This document shows positions 10,286 through 17,291 of a DNA stretch of 64,000 nt, in pieces. How positions within the stretch are numbered: position 1 is the stretch's first letter; every line of letters starts with the position of its first letter. The stretch is from Actinoplanes sp. SE50/110 (lineage in GTDB: Bacteria > Actinomycetota > Actinomycetes > Mycobacteriales > Micromonosporaceae): contig NZ_LT827010.1 of NCBI RefSeq assembly GCF_900119315.1, positions 4,373,001 to 4,437,000 of the forward strand, given 5' to 3'. The notes under the pieces are model-generated. The model saw only the letters and a list, made by a program, of their open reading frames with translations, searched no databases and had not been told where the DNA came from. Both the position numbers and the translations under genes were made by a program.

Positions 10286-11007
10286 TCAGGTAAGGCCCGG
10301 GCGTTCCGTATGTAGCTCCGCCAGCGCGGCCACGATGAGGTGTGCCGTGTTCCGATCTGTTTCAGTCGGCAGCGCGGGCACTTGGCGCAGACCCGTCGCC
10401 TGCATTATCCGGCTCCGCAGGCTCGGTGCCGTCGCATTTACCAAGTCGAATACCTTGGTCATGTCCATCGCAGTCAGTAGCGGAACTGCCTTGTGCGGTG
10501 TCCTCAGGGCCATTGTCTCCATAAGTGAACCTGCCCGGTCGGACTCCATCGCGGCCAGCACCCTGGCCGCCGGACGCGGCTGCATCTCAGCCAGCAGCCT
10601 GGCCGTCAGGGCCGAATCCATCCCGGCCAACGCCGAGGCCGCCTGAAGCGGATTCATCGCATTCAGGAGCCAAACCGCCCACTTCGGCGAAGGCTCGGGT
10701 AGTACAGGCTCGGCGTGTCGGCGGCCGTGGTCAGCGCCGCGGCGACCGATTCCTCGGCGCTGGTGCGCAGCCGGGCGAGGGCGTCGACGTCCTGGTCGAC
10801 GACCTGCGTGACCACCTTGGCGACGATCCGGTCGATCCGCTGCTGAATCGCTTTTTGTGCAGCCTGTACCGCGGCGCCCAGGTCGAGCGAGCGCAACGCT
10901 GCGGCGATCGCCCCGTCCAGTCCCGGCGTCGGCCCGGTGGCCGGTTGGTCGCCGGCGCCGGCCGGGTCGAGGGCGGCGAGGTCGTCCCACTCTCCGAGGT
11001 TGCTCAC
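10286..11007 (-). pseudogene. Frameshifted gene next to a decayed conjugation gene
   Basis: It starts at a GTG (11005-11007) overlapping the stop of the transfer-ATPase remnant (GTGA). The first frame (NLGEWDDLAALDP, then LDLGAAVQAAQKAIQQRIDR) is open to about 10663. Near 10700 a normal-looking protein continues in another frame (PEPSPKWAVWLLNAMN to ERPGLT, ending 10286). The second part has helical repeats (GMDSALTARLLAEMQP, AAMESDRAGSLMETM) like the MgtE N-terminal or FliG-like armadillo fold. One base appears lost at the junction. It was probably a cargo or accessory transfer protein. Confidence 0.5.
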
Positions 11008-11458
11008 GCCTGGCCGGTCCACGGGGTGCCGGCGGTCGCTTCCTGCTGTTCCACTTCGCGCAGCGACTCCAGGGCCTCGGCGATCGTGTCGTCGGCGGCC
11101 GGGTCGGGGGCCCCCACACGTGCACGGCGACGTCTTCCCAGGACATCCGCAAGGTCTGCCCGCCGGCCAGGGCCGCGCCGAGCGGCAGGCCGACGCTGGT
11201 GGTGACGCCGAGGCGTTTCGCGGTCGCGGCGGCCCCGGTGGTCAGGGCGTCGATGTTGCGGCCGCGATCCATGTACTTGGCCGCCCGGTCGACCCGGGTG
11301 GCCTTGCCGGCCCGGCGCAGCAGCAGCCAGAACACCACGCCGGCCGCGGCCAGGATGCCGGGCAGCTGGTAGGTGCCCCACGCGGTGCGCCCGAGCGGTC
11401 CGGACCGGTAGAGGTTCGAGCCGGATCCGCGGGCGCGCCGCCACAGCACGCGCCGCAC
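11004..11458 (-). pseudogene. Remnant of a TraG/VirD4-type conjugative coupling ATPase
   Basis: The frame from 11458 carries the N-terminal part of an actinobacterial coupling protein: a hydrophobic anchor (LPGILAAAGVVFWLLLRR), RGRNIDALTTGAAATAKRLGV and GQTLRMSWEDVAVHVWGP. In intact relatives (from memory) the Walker A motif follows that WGP directly. Here the frame changes near 11107 and only a C-terminal tail (DDTIAEALESLREVEQQ) remains, ending at 11004. The whole ATPase core, several hundred residues, is missing, so this is an internal deletion. It marks an old integrated conjugative element. Confidence 0.65.
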
Positions 11459-11509: not shown

Positions 11510-12676
11510 TCAGGCGGGGGTGAGCAGGCCCTCGCGCAGCAGGCGGCGGATCAGGACCAGGCTGTCGTCGCGGTCGAGCGGCAGGTCGCCGGCGGTGTGC
11601 GGTTTGCCGTCGAGGACCAGGCGCAGGGCCGGCTCGCAGTACCCGGGGAAGGTCACCGTGTAGCCGGCGGCCCGCACGGTGCCGCCGTCGACGTCGACGC
11701 TCAGGCCCGGACGGGCGGTGACCTCGTCGGTGTCGGTGAGCCGCTCGGCGAAGTCGAGCTGGGCCAGCGGGCTCAGCGGCGCCGGGCGGGTGGCCGGCCC
11801 GGTCCGCTCGCGCATCCGGGCGGCCACCGCCGCCGGATCGACGGTGGGCAGCCACTCCCGGAGCGCTTCGATCGTCGCGGTCAGCTCGGATTCCGGATTG
11901 CGGCGGTACGCCACGGTGGCGCGCAGCCGCGGCTCCTGCACCGCCATCGCCAGCAGTTCCTCGACCAGCGCATACCGGGTCAGACTGCGGATGCCGACGG
12001 TCAGATGCAGGGAGCGCACCTGCTCGGTACGGGCGGAGTGCAGCCAGCCGCGCGGCAGGTACAGGGCGTCCCCGGGTTCGAGCACGGTGTCGATCGCCGG
12101 CGTGCCCTCCGCGGTCGCCGCCACCTCGTCGGCGTGTCCGCCCCACGGCTGATTCTCGATCGGGTCGCTGAGCACCGGCGGATGGATGATCCACCGTTTG
12201 CGGCCCTCGCACTGCAGCACGAACACGTCGTGCGTGTCGTAGTGGGTGGCGAACCCCTGGCTGCCCGGCGGCGTCAGGTACGCGTTGACCTGCAGCGGCC
12301 GGTTCAACTCGGCGCCCAGCCGCCCGGTGAACTCGATCAGGGGCGGCCACAGCCGGTGCAGTCCCTGCAGCACCAGGGTGGCGCCGCCGGCGAACAGGCG
12401 CATCACGCGTTCGTCATGCACCTGGTCGCCGACCTCGGCCCCGGCCCCGCCGCCACCGGTGTACCGGCCGGCCGGCAGCACCTTGCCGTGCTGCGCCACC
12501 CGCAGGAACGGGGTGCGCAGACCACGGCGGCTGAGCAGCTCGTCGACCGCCGGTACGGACAGCAGATCGGTGAAGCCGGCACGGCCGCGGGAGAGCAGGG
12601 GCTGCTTTCCCCAGTACGTGTCGGCGAACTCCGCCTCGCCGATCCCGACGGCGCGGGCCAGGGCGCTGGTGGTCAT
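11510..12676 (-). CDS. JmjC/cupin-4 2-oxoglutarate oxygenase
   Basis: 388 residues, similar to bacterial ribosomal-oxygenase-type cupins (YcfD/NO66/MINA53 group). The N-terminal FADTYWGKQPLLSRG motif is typical. The iron facial triad is visible as HYDTHD (His and Asp) and, further on, PRGWLHSA (His), with a lysine-containing strand RKRWIIHPP for 2-oxoglutarate. A winged-helix-like dimer and tail domain follows. Family members hydroxylate Arg or His on proteins. It overlaps by 4 bp (ATGA) with the repeat-peptide gene upstream, so a peptide substrate is the obvious candidate (inference). Confidence 0.85.
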   Translation of the reverse strand: MTTSALARAVGIGEAEFADTYWGKQPLLSRGRAGFTDLLSVPAVDELLSRRGLRTPFLRVAQHGKVLPAGRYTGGGGAGAEVGDQVHDERVMRLFAGGATLVLQGLHRLWPPLIEFTGRLGAELNRPLQVNAYLTPPGSQGFATHYDTHDVFVLQCEGRKRWIIHPPVLSDPIENQPWGGHADEVAATAEGTPAIDTVLEPGDALYLPRGWLHSARTEQVRSLHLTVGIRSLTRYALVEELLAMAVQEPRLRATVAYRRNPESELTATIEALREWLPTVDPAAVAARMRERTGPATRPAPLSPLAQLDFAERLTDTDEVTARPGLSVDVDGGTVRAAGYTVTFPGYCEPALRLVLDGKPHTAGDLPLDRDDSLVLIRRLLREGLLTPA

Positions 12677-12876
12677 GCCGAGCCGTCGGCTCCGCCGTCG
12701 TGGCCCAGCGGGTTCGCGCCGCCGTCGGCCGGGCCCTCGTCCGGGGTGCCCTCGGTGTCGGCGGCACCGTCCGCGCCGCCGTCGTGCCCACCCGGGTACG
12801 CGCCGCCGTCGGCCGGGCCCTCGGTGTCCTTGTCCGCAGGGTCGGAACTCACGATGTCGTTCTCATTCAATGCCAT
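12673..12876 (-). CDS. 67-residue repeat peptide, candidate RiPP precursor
   Basis: Translation starts at the ATG at 12876 behind GGAG with 4-base spacing, and ends in an ATGA overlap with the JmjC oxygenase gene. After an 18-residue leader-like segment (MALNENDIVSSDPADKDT) come two near-identical 21-residue units, EGPADGGA(Y/N)P(G/L)GHDGGADG(A/S)A, joined by DTEGTPD. The peptide is highly acidic, lacks Cys, Ser or Thr clusters and has one His per unit in a PxGHDGG context. Translational coupling and core-like repeats suggest a precursor hydroxylated by the oxygenase. No maturation partner other than the P450 opposite is nearby. Confidence 0.65.
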   Translation of the reverse strand: MALNENDIVSSDPADKDTEGPADGGAYPGGHDGGADGAADTEGTPDEGPADGGANPLGHDGGADGSA

Positions 12877-12956: not shown

Positions 12957-14126
12957 ATGCTTCTCGATGACAGTGTCGGCTTGGCGGTCCAAGGGTACGG
13001 CTGGCTCCCCACGGTGTGGCGGCGCGCCGGCGGCGGCCCGGTGGTGCAGACCCGGCTGCTCGGGCAGAAGGTGACCGCGCTGCGCGGCCCCGAGGCGGTC
13101 CGATTCTTCTACGACGAGTCGCACATCCGGCGGCACGGGGCGCTCCCGGAACCGGTACAGGGCACCCTGTTCGGCAAGGGCGCCGTGCACACCCTGGACG
13201 GCGACGAGCACCACGCCCGCAAGGCGATCTTCCTGAACGTGCTCAAGGACCCGCGGCACATCGCCGATCTGGTCGACCGGGCCGGGCGGGCCTGGGACGA
13301 GACGGCCGCCGGGTGGACGCCGGGCCGTCCGGTGGTGCTCTTCGACGAGGCGAGCCGGGTGCTGACCCGGGCGGTCTGCGACTGGGCCGGGGTGCCGGTC
13401 AGCGACGCCGAGGTGCCGCGGGTGGCGGCCGACCTGACCGCGATGGTGGACGGGTTCGCGACGCTGGGGCCGCGGCACTGGCGGGCCCGGACCGCCCGCG
13501 GCCGCCGGGAACGCTGGCTGGAACCGCTGCTCGGGCACAGCTGGATCCGCGGCCTGGACGCGGTCGACATGCTGAACATCCTGCGCCCGACGGTGGCGGT
13601 GTCGTGGTTCGTGGCGTTCGCCGGGCACGCGCTGCACCGGTGGCCCCGGCAGGCCGAGCCGCTGCGGGACGGCAACACCGCGTACGCCATCGCGTTCGCG
13701 CACGAGGTCCGGCGGTTCTACCCGTTCGCGCCGTTCGTCGGCGGCCGGGCGGTGCGCGACCTGTCCTGGGGCGGGCACGACATCCCGGCCGGGTCGATGG
13801 TGCTGCTCGACATCTACGGACAGAACCACGACGCGGACCTGTTCCCGGAGCCTTACCGGTTCAACCCGGCCCGCTTCCTGGGCATCTCGCCCCAGGCTGA
13901 CGAGCTGATCCCGCAGGGCGGCGGCGACGCGGCGACCAATCACCGGTGCCCGGGAGAGGACGTGGTGGTGATGCTGCTCGCCGACCTGGCGACCCGACTG
14001 GCTCGGTGCGACTACTCCGTACCGGAGCAGGATCTGACCATCCCACTGACCCGCATCCCGGCCCGGCCGTGCAGCGGCGTGGTGCTGGTCCCGGCCGCCG
14101 CGGAGGTATTCACCCCCGCTGGATGA
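12957..14126 (+). CDS. Cytochrome P450, CYP152-type fatty-acid peroxygenase
   Basis: 389 residues from the ATG at 12957, slightly shorter than typical. The haem-ligand motif is HRCPGED near residue 328. The helix preceding the substrate pocket reads EVRRFYPFAPFVGGRAV; the arginine and proline there match the carboxylate-binding pair of P450 BSbeta/SPalpha peroxygenases, which use H2O2 to hydroxylate or decarboxylate fatty acids. It is divergent from the repeat peptide with 80 bp between. Its last codons and stop are part of the first R17 box (14110-14126). Confidence 0.85.
   Translation: MLLDDSVGLAVQGYGWLPTVWRRAGGGPVVQTRLLGQKVTALRGPEAVRFFYDESHIRRHGALPEPVQGTLFGKGAVHTLDGDEHHARKAIFLNVLKDPRHIADLVDRAGRAWDETAAGWTPGRPVVLFDEASRVLTRAVCDWAGVPVSDAEVPRVAADLTAMVDGFATLGPRHWRARTARGRRERWLEPLLGHSWIRGLDAVDMLNILRPTVAVSWFVAFAGHALHRWPRQAEPLRDGNTAYAIAFAHEVRRFYPFAPFVGGRAVRDLSWGGHDIPAGSMVLLDIYGQNHDADLFPEPYRFNPARFLGISPQADELIPQGGGDAATNHRCPGEDVVVMLLADLATRLARCDYSVPEQDLTIPLTRIPARPCSGVVLVPAAAEVFTPAG
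14110..14126 (+). promoter_or_regulatory. R17 box, first of the island
   Basis: TCACCC-CCGCT-GGATGA, overlapping the P450 stop codon. A -10-like GATTCT is at 14150-14155, starting 24 bp after the box end. The predicted transcript starts near 14162, giving a leader of about 30 bases with AGGAG before the ATG at 14192. It would drive the 14192-19187 operon. Confidence 0.75.
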
Positions 14127-14191
14127 GGCGGCGCCGGGGCTCCGGCGGCGATTCTCAGGCGCGGCACCTCCCGCGACCTCAGGAGAATCCG

Positions 14192-14650
14192 ATGAGCTCC
14201 GAACCTGTCAAACCGTCCGTCAACGCCGGGAAACTGTGGGCCGGTGGCGGGGCCACCGCGGCGGTGGCGGCGCTGATCGCCGTCGCCGGGATCCTGCTCG
14301 GGCGCGGCATCTTCGACATCGGCGTGCTCGCCCCGAAGGGCGACGGCGCCTGGGGTGACGCGAGCACCGGCTGGTACGCGCTGGGCGCCGCGGTGGCCGC
14401 GCTCGCCGCTACCGGCCTGGTGCATGTGCTGATCCTGACCACCCCGCGGCCGATGCGCTTCTTCGGCTGGGTGGTCGGGCTGGCCACGGTGTCGGCGATG
14501 CTGGCGCCGTACGTCACCGACGCCGAACGGGCCGCCAAGGTCTACACGTCCGGCCTCACCATGATCCTCGGCATCGCGATCGGCTCATTGATCGCCGGCG
14601 TGGCCCGCTCGGCCACCACCCTGGTGCGGCCCCGGCCGTCCTACCGGTGA
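14192..14650 (+). CDS. Four-helix membrane protein, DUF6069-like
   Basis: 152 residues from the ATG at 14192 with ribosome site AGGAG at 14181-14185. Four hydrophobic segments (about 14-38, 60-85, 92-112, 120-142), with a short loop after the first helix. It matches the general pattern of DUF6069 membrane proteins; no catalytic residues seen. First gene of the R17-driven operon with the P-type ATPase 10 bp downstream, so it could be an accessory subunit (inference). Confidence 0.65.
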   Translation: MSSEPVKPSVNAGKLWAGGGATAAVAALIAVAGILLGRGIFDIGVLAPKGDGAWGDASTGWYALGAAVAALAATGLVHVLILTTPRPMRFFGWVVGLATVSAMLAPYVTDAERAAKVYTSGLTMILGIAIGSLIAGVARSATTLVRPRPSYR

Positions 14651-14660
14651 GGGGCGCGAG

Positions 14661-17291
14661 ATGACCGCGACCTATCACGTGCTGACCGTGCCGGAGGCGC
14701 TGGAGGCGGAGAACGTCGACCAGCAGCGGGGCCTCAGTGGTGCGGAGGCCGACGCCCGCCGGCAGAAGTTCGGGCCGAACCGGTTCGCCGAGGCGAAGCG
14801 GGAACCCTGGTGGCGGTCCTTCGCCCGGCAGTACGCCGACCCGATGCAGCTGGTCCTGCTCTTCGCCGGCCTGGGCAGCCTCTACCCGCTGAAACAGTGG
14901 GGGACCGGCGTGCTGCTGCTGGCGCTGACCCTGCTCAACGCCGCGCTCGGCCTGCACCAGGAGGGCAAGGCCGCGGCGGCGATCGACGCGCTGCAGAAGA
15001 TGATGATCGTCAAGGCCCGGGTGCGCCGCGACGGGACGCTGATCGAGGTGCCGGCAGAGGACCTGGTACCCGGCGACGTGGTGCAGCTGGAGGCCGGCGA
15101 CGTGGTGCCGGCCGACGGGCGGCTGCTGCGCGCGGCCACCCTGGAGATCGACGAGTCGGCGCTGACCGGCGAGAGCCTGCCGGTCGCCAAGAACGTGGAA
15201 CCGCTGGCCGAGGCGGACGTGGCGCTCGGCGACCGGTCCGACATGGCGTACATGAACACCAACGTGACCCGGGGAGCCGGGGAACTGCTGGTCACCGCGA
15301 CCGGGATGGGCACCGAGGTCGGCCGGATCTCCAAGATGCTGGCCACCGACAAGGGCGCCGACACCCCGCTGACCCGGCAGTTGGCCAAGCTGACCAACCA
15401 GATCCTGATCATCTCGGGGATCGCGCTGCTCGCCTCGGTGCTGATCAACCTGGCCCGGGGCAACGAGTTCACCGTGGTGTTCACCGCGGCGGTGGCGTTC
15501 GCGGTGTCGGCCATCCCGACCGGTCTGCCGGCCGTGGTCACCACCATCCTGTCGCAGGGCACCCAGCTGCTGGCCAAGGCGAACGCGATCGTGAAACGGC
15601 TGCGGTCGACCGAGACGCTGGGTTCCACCTCGGCGATCAACTCGGACAAGACCGGGACGCTGACCCTGAACCAGATGACCGCGATCGAGATGGTCATCCC
15701 GGGGCGGCGGTACGTGGTGTCCGGCAGCGGTTACTCCACACAGGGCTCGATCAAACGGGTGGCCGGGGAGCCGGACACGCCACTGGAGGAGTTCCTGCTG
15801 CCGATGATCCTGGCCTCCGACGCGGTGGTGACCGACGGGTCGATGATCGGGGATCCGACCGAGGGTGCGCTGGTCGTGCTGGCGGAGAAGGGTGGGCTCG
15901 ACGCTCAGGCCACCCGGGAGAGGTATCCGCGGATCGCCGAACTGCCGTTCGACGCCGCGTACAAGCTGATGGCCACATTCCACGAGATGTCGGGAAAGAT
16001 CCGGTGTTATGTGAAAGGCGCGCCGGATCAGCTGCTCGCCCGCAGCAATGTCACGCCCGACCAGCGCGAACGCTACACGGCCGAGAACGATCGCCTGGCC
16101 CGGCAGGGGCTGCGGGTGATGGCCACCGCCTACCGGGACTTCGACAGGCTCGGTGACGACCTGCTGGAGAGCCTGCAGGACCTGACCCCGCTCGCCCTGG
16201 TCGGCATCGTGGACCCGCCCCGGCCGCAGGCCAGGGACGCGATCGAGCAGGCGCACGCGGCCGGCATCGAGGTCCGCATGATCACCGGCGACCACGCGGT
16301 GACCGCCGCCGCCATCGCCGGCAGGCTCGGCATCCGCGGCCGCGCGATCACCGGCGCCGAGTTCGCCGCGATGAGCGACGAGGAGGCCGACCGGGAGATC
16401 GGCGGCATCGGGGTGATCGCCCGGGTCACCCCGGAACACAAGGTGCGCCTGGTCGAGGTGCTCCGGCGTAGGGGCCACATCGTCGCGATGACCGGCGACG
16501 GCGTCAACGACGCGCCGGCGCTGAAGAAGGCCGACATCGGCATCGCGATGGGGATCACCGGCACCGAGGTGAGCAAGGAAGCCGCCGCGATGATCCTCAC
16601 CGACGACGACTTCGCCACCATCGTCAAGGCCGTCGCGCTGGGCCGCGCCCTGTACGCCAACCTGAAGAAGTACATCTTCTTCCAGATGGGCACCCTGGTC
16701 GGGATGATCATCACGTTCCTGGTGGCGAGCATCGGCAACATCGCCGCCGGCGTGCCGTTCGTGCCACTGCAGACCCTGTGGCTGAACTTCACCACCCAGA
16801 TCTTCCAGTCGGTCGGCCTCGGCTACGGCAAGGCCGAGGCGGACATCATGAGTCACCCGCCGCGCCGCTCCGACGAGCCGCTGCTCAGCCGCGCCGCACT
16901 GGGCTGGCTCGGCATCCTCGGCCTGATCATGGGCGCGGTGACCCTGGTGGTGATCGGCTGGGCGGACCACGGCCACGACGTCGACTATGCCCGCACCATG
17001 GGGCTGACCGCGTTCTCCATCGCCAACCTGGCCTTCTCGCTGACCGTGCGCAGCGACATCCGCTCGGTGTTCAGTCTGGAGACCTTCGGCGACAAACGCT
17101 TCGTGGTCACCACCGGCCTGTCCGCCGCCGCGATCGTGCTGGCCACCGAGTTCGGCCTGTTCCAGAAGATCCTGCACACCAGCAGCCTGGGCGTCCGGCA
17201 CTGGCTGATCTGCCTGCTCGCCGGCGTCGTCGTGGTGATCCCCACCGAGATCCGCAAGGCGGTGCTGCGCCGCCGGAACGGGAGCGCGTGA
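14661..17291 (+). CDS. P2-like cation-transporting P-type ATPase of unknown ion
   Basis: 876 residues. It has the N-terminal cation-ATPase domain, the TGES actuator loop (ESALTGESLPVAK), the phosphorylation site DKTGT with Asp329, the ATP site KGAPDQL and hinge GDGVNDAPALKKADIGIAMG. The overall layout is SERCA-like, but the ion-site residues differ: PEGLP in helix 4 is PTGLP, and NLVTDG in helix 6 is NFTTQ, removing two acidic calcium ligands. So it is not a standard Ca2+ pump; the ion is unknown. Downstream genes overlap (TGATG), forming one operon. Confidence 0.85.
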   Translation: MTATYHVLTVPEALEAENVDQQRGLSGAEADARRQKFGPNRFAEAKREPWWRSFARQYADPMQLVLLFAGLGSLYPLKQWGTGVLLLALTLLNAALGLHQEGKAAAAIDALQKMMIVKARVRRDGTLIEVPAEDLVPGDVVQLEAGDVVPADGRLLRAATLEIDESALTGESLPVAKNVEPLAEADVALGDRSDMAYMNTNVTRGAGELLVTATGMGTEVGRISKMLATDKGADTPLTRQLAKLTNQILIISGIALLASVLINLARGNEFTVVFTAAVAFAVSAIPTGLPAVVTTILSQGTQLLAKANAIVKRLRSTETLGSTSAINSDKTGTLTLNQMTAIEMVIPGRRYVVSGSGYSTQGSIKRVAGEPDTPLEEFLLPMILASDAVVTDGSMIGDPTEGALVVLAEKGGLDAQATRERYPRIAELPFDAAYKLMATFHEMSGKIRCYVKGAPDQLLARSNVTPDQRERYTAENDRLARQGLRVMATAYRDFDRLGDDLLESLQDLTPLALVGIVDPPRPQARDAIEQAHAAGIEVRMITGDHAVTAAAIAGRLGIRGRAITGAEFAAMSDEEADREIGGIGVIARVTPEHKVRLVEVLRRRGHIVAMTGDGVNDAPALKKADIGIAMGITGTEVSKEAAAMILTDDDFATIVKAVALGRALYANLKKYIFFQMGTLVGMIITFLVASIGNIAAGVPFVPLQTLWLNFTTQIFQSVGLGYGKAEADIMSHPPRRSDEPLLSRAALGWLGILGLIMGAVTLVVIGWADHGHDVDYARTMGLTAFSIANLAFSLTVRSDIRSVFSLETFGDKRFVVTTGLSAAAIVLATEFGLFQKILHTSSLGVRHWLICLLAGVVVVIPTEIRKAVLRRRNGSA

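Follow-up and report, generated by a model that had tools for sequence, protein, structure and literature searches.

The 64,000-nucleotide stretch of the Actinoplanes sp. SE50/110 genome analyzed here (the window) raises the question of whether a short repetitive open reading frame (ORF) next to a JmjC oxygenase gene encodes the substrate of that enzyme and, if so, which residue is modified. The ORF (12673–12876, minus strand) has an ATG start and encodes an acidic peptide of 67 amino acids (MALNENDIVSSDPADKDTEGPADGGAYPGGHDGGADGAADTEGTPDEGPADGGANPLGHDGGADGSA, read from 12876 to 12673) with a net charge of approximately −15. The peptide contains two 21-residue units, EGPADGGAYPGGHDGGADGAA (unit 1; 12760–12822, minus strand) and EGPADGGANPLGHDGGADGSA (unit 2; 12676–12738, minus strand), which are identical at 18 of 21 residues and 52 of 63 nucleotides, with seven of the 11 nucleotide differences at third codon positions. 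The stop codon of the peptide overlaps the JmjC start codon by 4 nt (ATGA). The peptide and the overlap are thus confirmed as originally predicted. A GGAG motif lies 8 to 5 nt before the peptide ATG and the JmjC gene lacks a well-spaced Shine-Dalgarno sequence of its own; the translational coupling proposed for the two genes is supported. Among the 605 stop-to-stop frames of at least 50 codons in the window, tandem 21-mers matching at 16 or more of 21 residues occur only in the peptide frame and its antisense. A search of the genome with a DNA pattern of the unit found only three other matches, all single and chance-like. Model searches placed the peptide in no Pfam or NCBIfam family, and searches for sigma-70-type promoters and terminators found none.

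The pairing of the repeat peptide with the JmjC enzyme is well supported by comparisons among relatives. The enzyme is present in 47 of 61 genomes (its own and those of relatives), including orthologs in 31 of the 36 other species of the genus (64–74% identity), and all 29 same-genus JmjC loci read have a repeat ORF directly upstream, with two to five units each. The sampling was widened to 396 genomes of the phylum and then to GTDB genomes, in which at least 551 relatives were found among the 595 stretches listed. The pair extends to Micromonospora, Salinispora, Amycolatopsis, Pseudonocardia, Actinokineospora, Curtobacterium, Agromyces, and Rhodococcoides, as well as to other classes of the phylum. 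Selection of the loci was based on the enzyme and was independent of the peptide, and an upstream ORF was counted when it was Asp/Gly-rich and ended no more than 450 bp upstream of, or just inside, the JmjC start. By this rule, 137 of 138 unique JmjC loci in Actinomycetota (duplicates removed) have such an ORF, compared with 10 of 890 control gene starts from the same loci, and the small gene is therefore linked to the enzyme across relatives. The sole exception (L179) has an upstream stretch masked by N, yet this ends in DGSA. An initial compositional cut-off of seven Asp in the last 40 residues had found only 52 of 145 loci; it was relaxed to five because many units have fewer Asp, and the identical rule was run on the 890 controls. 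A strict leader motif was found at 121 of the 138 loci and at none of the controls, which were scored with the same pattern, although this pattern was fixed after the data were seen. Among 20 more distant JmjC_2 homologs, such an ORF is found only at L194, whose enzyme falls within the family of the paired enzymes on the tree. In comparisons of 20-kb loci, the pair stays joined while the flanks change. The two genes in relatives are mostly separated by a gap (median 38 nt) rather than overlapping.

The peptides of these relatives share one layout, in which a short acidic leader motif is followed by two to six tandem units. The leader consensus is (L/I/V)-x-D-D-D-(I/M), as in LNDDDM, LSDDDI, and LNDDDI, and the motif comes shortly after the start codon, with residue 3 as its first position in 113 of 128 sequences. 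In the window peptide, LNENDI (residues 3–8; 12853–12870, minus strand) is the counterpart of LSDDDI, LNDDDM, and LTDEDI. A conserved leader therefore exists as predicted, but its motif spans approximately residues 3–8 and not the first 18 residues originally assigned to it. The nine leader codons have a pN/pS of 0.75, a weak constraint, and the leader is therefore constrained mainly at its motif. The units are under stronger constraint (pN/pS of 0.25), with differences of 0.42 at third codon positions compared with 0.11 and 0.12 at the other two. The small ORF is a conserved protein-coding gene and not a chance ORF; neither absence beside orthologous oxygenases nor the drift of non-coding DNA, either of which would have spoken against a precursor, was found.

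Among 275 units from 87 loci, G2, D5, G7, A8, D14, A17, D18, and A21 never vary, although this invariance was partly pre-set, as the search pattern itself required all of these positions except G2. The same limit applies to the three Asp residues of the xDGxA elements (D5, D14, and D18), which are found in 275 of 275 units and in unit 1 of the window peptide. Cores from other classes of the phylum are TDGDATDGTDGDA-like or of a TDGDA type and are still Asp-rich. Asp, mostly as Asp-Gly, is common to the cores, including those found without any unit pattern, and this recurrence provides a firmer argument than the pattern-based invariance. No signal peptide is apparent by eye in the peptide sequences. 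At one locus (L055), the place of the short acidic peptide upstream of the JmjC gene is taken by a very long repeat ORF (up to 466 codons) containing ADGTDQGVEGGTYGPRDAS-type units.

The gene downstream of the peptide (11510–12676, minus strand) encodes a 388-residue protein of the PF08007 (JmjC_2) family (E = 1.4e-29), a ROX-type JmjC 2-oxoglutarate (2OG) oxygenase presumed to be the modifying enzyme. The iron ligands H145 and D147 (HYD motif; 12236–12244, minus strand) and H213 (12038–12040, minus strand), together with the 2OG-binding K160, are invariant among 34 aligned orthologs and align with those of NO66, and the active site is intact. The AlphaFold2 model (pLDDT 93) is matched over its full length by human NO66 (VIA-align Z 30.6 over 365 residues, 25% identity), followed by MINA53, YxbC, and YcfD. 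As judged by the model and NO66, the enzyme consists of a catalytic core, a helical region, and a C-terminal winged helix, which corresponds to the full-length fold and Fe/2OG ligands common to the histidyl hydroxylases NO66 and MINA53, and the arginyl hydroxylase YcfD, which belong to PF08007.

The C-terminal winged helix (residues 298–388; 11513–11785, minus strand) resembles a RiPP recognition element (RRE). When modeled alone (pLDDT 93), it matches the winged helices of ROX proteins first and then largely RREs, including those of PqqD (Z 6.3), MccB (6.2), TbiB1 (6.0), and PbtF (5.9), as well as those of cyanobactin heterocyclases, ThcOx, NisB, MibB, and a lasso B1 protein; these scores range from Z 5 to 6.3, which is middling, and the winged helix is also shared with ribosomal oxygenases. 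Such a list would not be expected from a random winged helix, and the domain is presumed to bind the leader.

The association between peptide and enzyme also extends to their evolutionary history. On a tree of 90 JmjC proteins, the peptide core types require 10 changes, compared with a mean of 49 after shuffling, and none of 200 shuffles gave a value as low; the tree was a quick maximum-likelihood one, for which the search was short and SH-aLRT the only measure of support, and the core-type labels were derived from our own patterns, with a few corrected by hand. Enzyme clade and peptide core type are co-inherited. In Streptomyces, the JmjC genes of sister clades are preceded by small Asp-rich ORFs of other kinds. 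L206, L207, and L202:2772–2918 (S. clavuligerus plasmid) have a 48-residue ORF with a leader (LSPEEIEV or LEPDEIEV) and two ISDNDPSDPV-like repeats (VISDNDPSDPV twice), representing a different Asp-rich core with multiple units. In another Streptomyces clade (SH-aLRT 99; L195, L199, L200, L216–L220, and L222), most of the short upstream ORFs end in SDGGSTGRTDTND or SDNTGGKSDQNDT and several have a conserved GLLVAxxxxxAARSR; these sequences may represent a further precursor type. Short ORFs bearing Asp/Asn and Trp, such as SLEASDITVTTNSSSNIVSPFDCSWGPWDDNNANDSGLYDGWDD, precede the JmjC genes of L209 and L210 (Streptomyces family), and ASDIT-led Asp/Asn-rich peptides are likewise found upstream in Streptomyces sister clades. 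The name of a related strain, 'polyasparticus', was rejected as a hint of polyaspartate, because the Streptomyces of that name was named for its isolation medium.

Gene content around the pair is variable. A divergent P450 gene, noted in the original prediction, begins at 12957 on the plus strand, 80 bp from the peptide start, and its product has a match to the CYP152 peroxygenase CypC that falls below the cutoff (366.6 bits versus 600). The position and the CYP152-like character stand, but a role as a partner was rejected because none of 120 related loci has a homolog. The divergent region (12957–17291, plus strand) contains this P450 gene, a small membrane-protein-like ORF, and a gene for a P-type cation ATPase. 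Downstream of the JmjC gene, an ORF (10286–11458, minus strand) has an MgtE_N-type stretch (PF03448, E = 1.4e-7), and it may be a frameshifted remnant because the frame changes character along its length.

In 20-kb comparisons, the only recurrent neighbor is a Suc_Fer-like gene outside Micromonosporaceae. Of the approximately 35 loci outside this family with enough sequence, 29 have it immediately after the JmjC gene. The assignment to PF06999 has E-values of 2.4e-20 and 5e-18 for two of these proteins, and the signature CxHxxHDxCC ... WECSHxGGDRFAAN is conserved. At L079–L100 and L164–L180, the gene is positioned as in an operon with the JmjC gene. The Micromonosporaceae loci examined yielded no Suc_Fer-like gene close to the pair, and none was found elsewhere in the genome of the window; the protein is therefore not essential to the pair. 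Neither a protease nor a transporter recurs beside the pair in these 20-kb comparisons. There is therefore no support for processing or export, and the product may remain inside the cell.

Taken together, the two genes probably encode a RiPP-like precursor and its oxygenase, with a leader-binding domain fused to the enzyme and β-hydroxylation of Asp in the repeats, a reading that we hold with moderate confidence. Because the pair recurs across actinobacteria, the enzyme very probably hydroxylates the repeats. The two genes would constitute a minimal RiPP-like modification operon, in which the precursor encoded by the small ORF would carry a short acidic leader motif before two to six tandem units built from xDGxA. 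The RRE-like winged helix would bind the leader, and the JmjC core, with Fe(II), O2, and 2-oxoglutarate, would hydroxylate the invariant core Asp residues unit by unit to β-hydroxy-Asp. Asp is favored as the modified residue because it is common to all core types, although metal binding or a structural role could instead account for its invariance. A polyanionic poly-hydroxy-Asp peptide would result as the product, which could plausibly serve as a ligand of Fe or Ca. In many lineages other than Micromonosporaceae, the adjoining Suc_Fer-like protein may supply electrons or act on this product. Given that orthologs are found in most species of the genus, a physiological function is likelier than a sporadic natural product, and a metal-ligand peptide would fit such a function better than an antibiotic. 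Regarding the original prediction of a RiPP precursor and its enzyme, the pair, the leader, the repeated core, and the coupling are real; in the strict sense of a modified and processed product, the system is a RiPP candidate.

The original prediction pointed to the His of PxGHDGG, which the JmjC enzyme would hydroxylate in the manner of NO66 and MINA53, whose substrates are ribosomal proteins. The closest solved relatives are indeed histidyl hydroxylases, and His is the commonest residue at unit position 13 (158 of 275). However, this position is one of the most variable in the unit (Q in 62 units, R in 24, and V in 15, among others; entropy 1.87 bits). In place of His, it can carry Q, R, V, T, E, A, G, S, N, or K, and at 29 of 117 loci none of the units has His in this position. 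The same variable position was found in 364 units with a looser pattern that left the residue before DGG free, and the repeats of other clades lack His. In addition, NO66 is reported to contact its Rpl8 peptide through R297, Y328, and S421 (PMC6006756), which by our reading of the profile alignment correspond to V102, Y133, and G228 here, all invariant in the family. Replacement of two of these three residues speaks against a copied His specificity. A dedicated small substrate gene adjoining that of the enzyme also distinguishes the system from NO66, MINA53, and YcfD. His was rejected as the required modified residue, and we regard its hydroxylation as very improbable. Another explanation is that the enzyme acts on the repeats by other chemistry, such as oxidation of Asn, Pro, or Gly, desaturation, cross-linking, or backbone cleavage. 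2OG enzymes are chemically versatile and several Gly and Ala residues of the unit are as invariant as Asp; however, the known chemistry of the closest relatives is side-chain hydroxylation and the Asn and Pro positions vary, such that this explanation seems improbable.

A different type of alternative concerns the fate or the coding role of the peptide. It may be an intracellular hydroxylated protein, such as a metal buffer or a sensor of oxygen or iron, from which no leader is removed and which is not exported. Such a protein would agree with the missing conserved protease and transporter, the retention of the enzyme in the genus, the Suc_Fer-like partner of other lineages, and the lack of an apparent signal peptide. 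However, a leader/core layout, tandem units, and an RRE-like domain are what RiPP precursors and enzymes typically have, and RiPP proteases and transporters are often unlinked; we consider this alternative unlikely. The suggestion that the small ORF merely couples or attenuates translation of the JmjC gene, its protein sequence having no role, agrees with the ATGA overlap in the window. It is hardly credible given the strong constraint on the units, the gap found in most relatives, and the core types that track the enzyme clades. The RiPP-like pair with Asp β-hydroxylation remains our preferred reading.

Several known systems resemble parts of this pair. Asp side chains, the proposed targets here, are modified in other RiPPs, including cinnamycin and duramycin (Asp hydroxylation) and the aspartimide-containing graspetides and imiditides. 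These involve other enzyme families, and no lanthionine, ATP-grasp, or methyltransferase partner is seen to recur here. JmjC and cupin hydroxylases in RiPP pathways are already known: BipG/BpmG (JmjC) and PbsQ (cupin-like) hydroxylate Orn in biphenomycin-type precursors (PMC12707348; PMC12257519). The likeness lies in a 2OG enzyme paired with a RiPP-type precursor, assuming that hydroxylation occurs here. However, biphenomycin clusters have a single FRF-type core and multiple enzymes (MNIO, arginase, and B12-rSAM), whereas one enzyme and a multi-unit Asp-Gly core are found here. The nearest prior statement found is a 2025 mSystems paper, which reports RRE-like folds fused to PF08007 JmjC proteins, as in the present enzyme, in fish and algae and mentions bacterial JmjC homologs in RiPP-like contexts (PMC12710340). 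The passages covered focus on the fish and algal proteins and describe no precursor family, core, leader, or partner. In line with the original prediction, no description of such a pair or of a RiPP class with this core was found in the literature covered, which excluded most subscription journals. Neither the precursor family, nor a layout of one enzyme with a multi-unit Asp-Gly core, nor the association with Suc_Fer was found in that literature.

These findings indicate an overlooked peptide family that matches no NCBIfam or Pfam model. Concrete adjoining substrates would be assigned to a large branch of orphan JmjC oxygenases in bacteria (at least 551 relatives), such that their chemistry could be tested directly, and the pair offers a way to test whether the winged helix of ribosomal oxygenases is a peptide-reading RRE. 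More tentatively, and with somewhat more doubt than conviction, the pairs may represent an undescribed phylum-wide RiPP class, in which multi-unit precursors of the Asp-Gly type or otherwise rich in Asp are each read by the RRE-like domain of a cognate ROX-type JmjC enzyme and converted to poly-β-hydroxyaspartyl, metal-binding products with a Suc_Fer-like redox partner. If such a separate class exists, ribosomal oxygenases and RiPP oxygenases would share one fold and one leader-reading domain.
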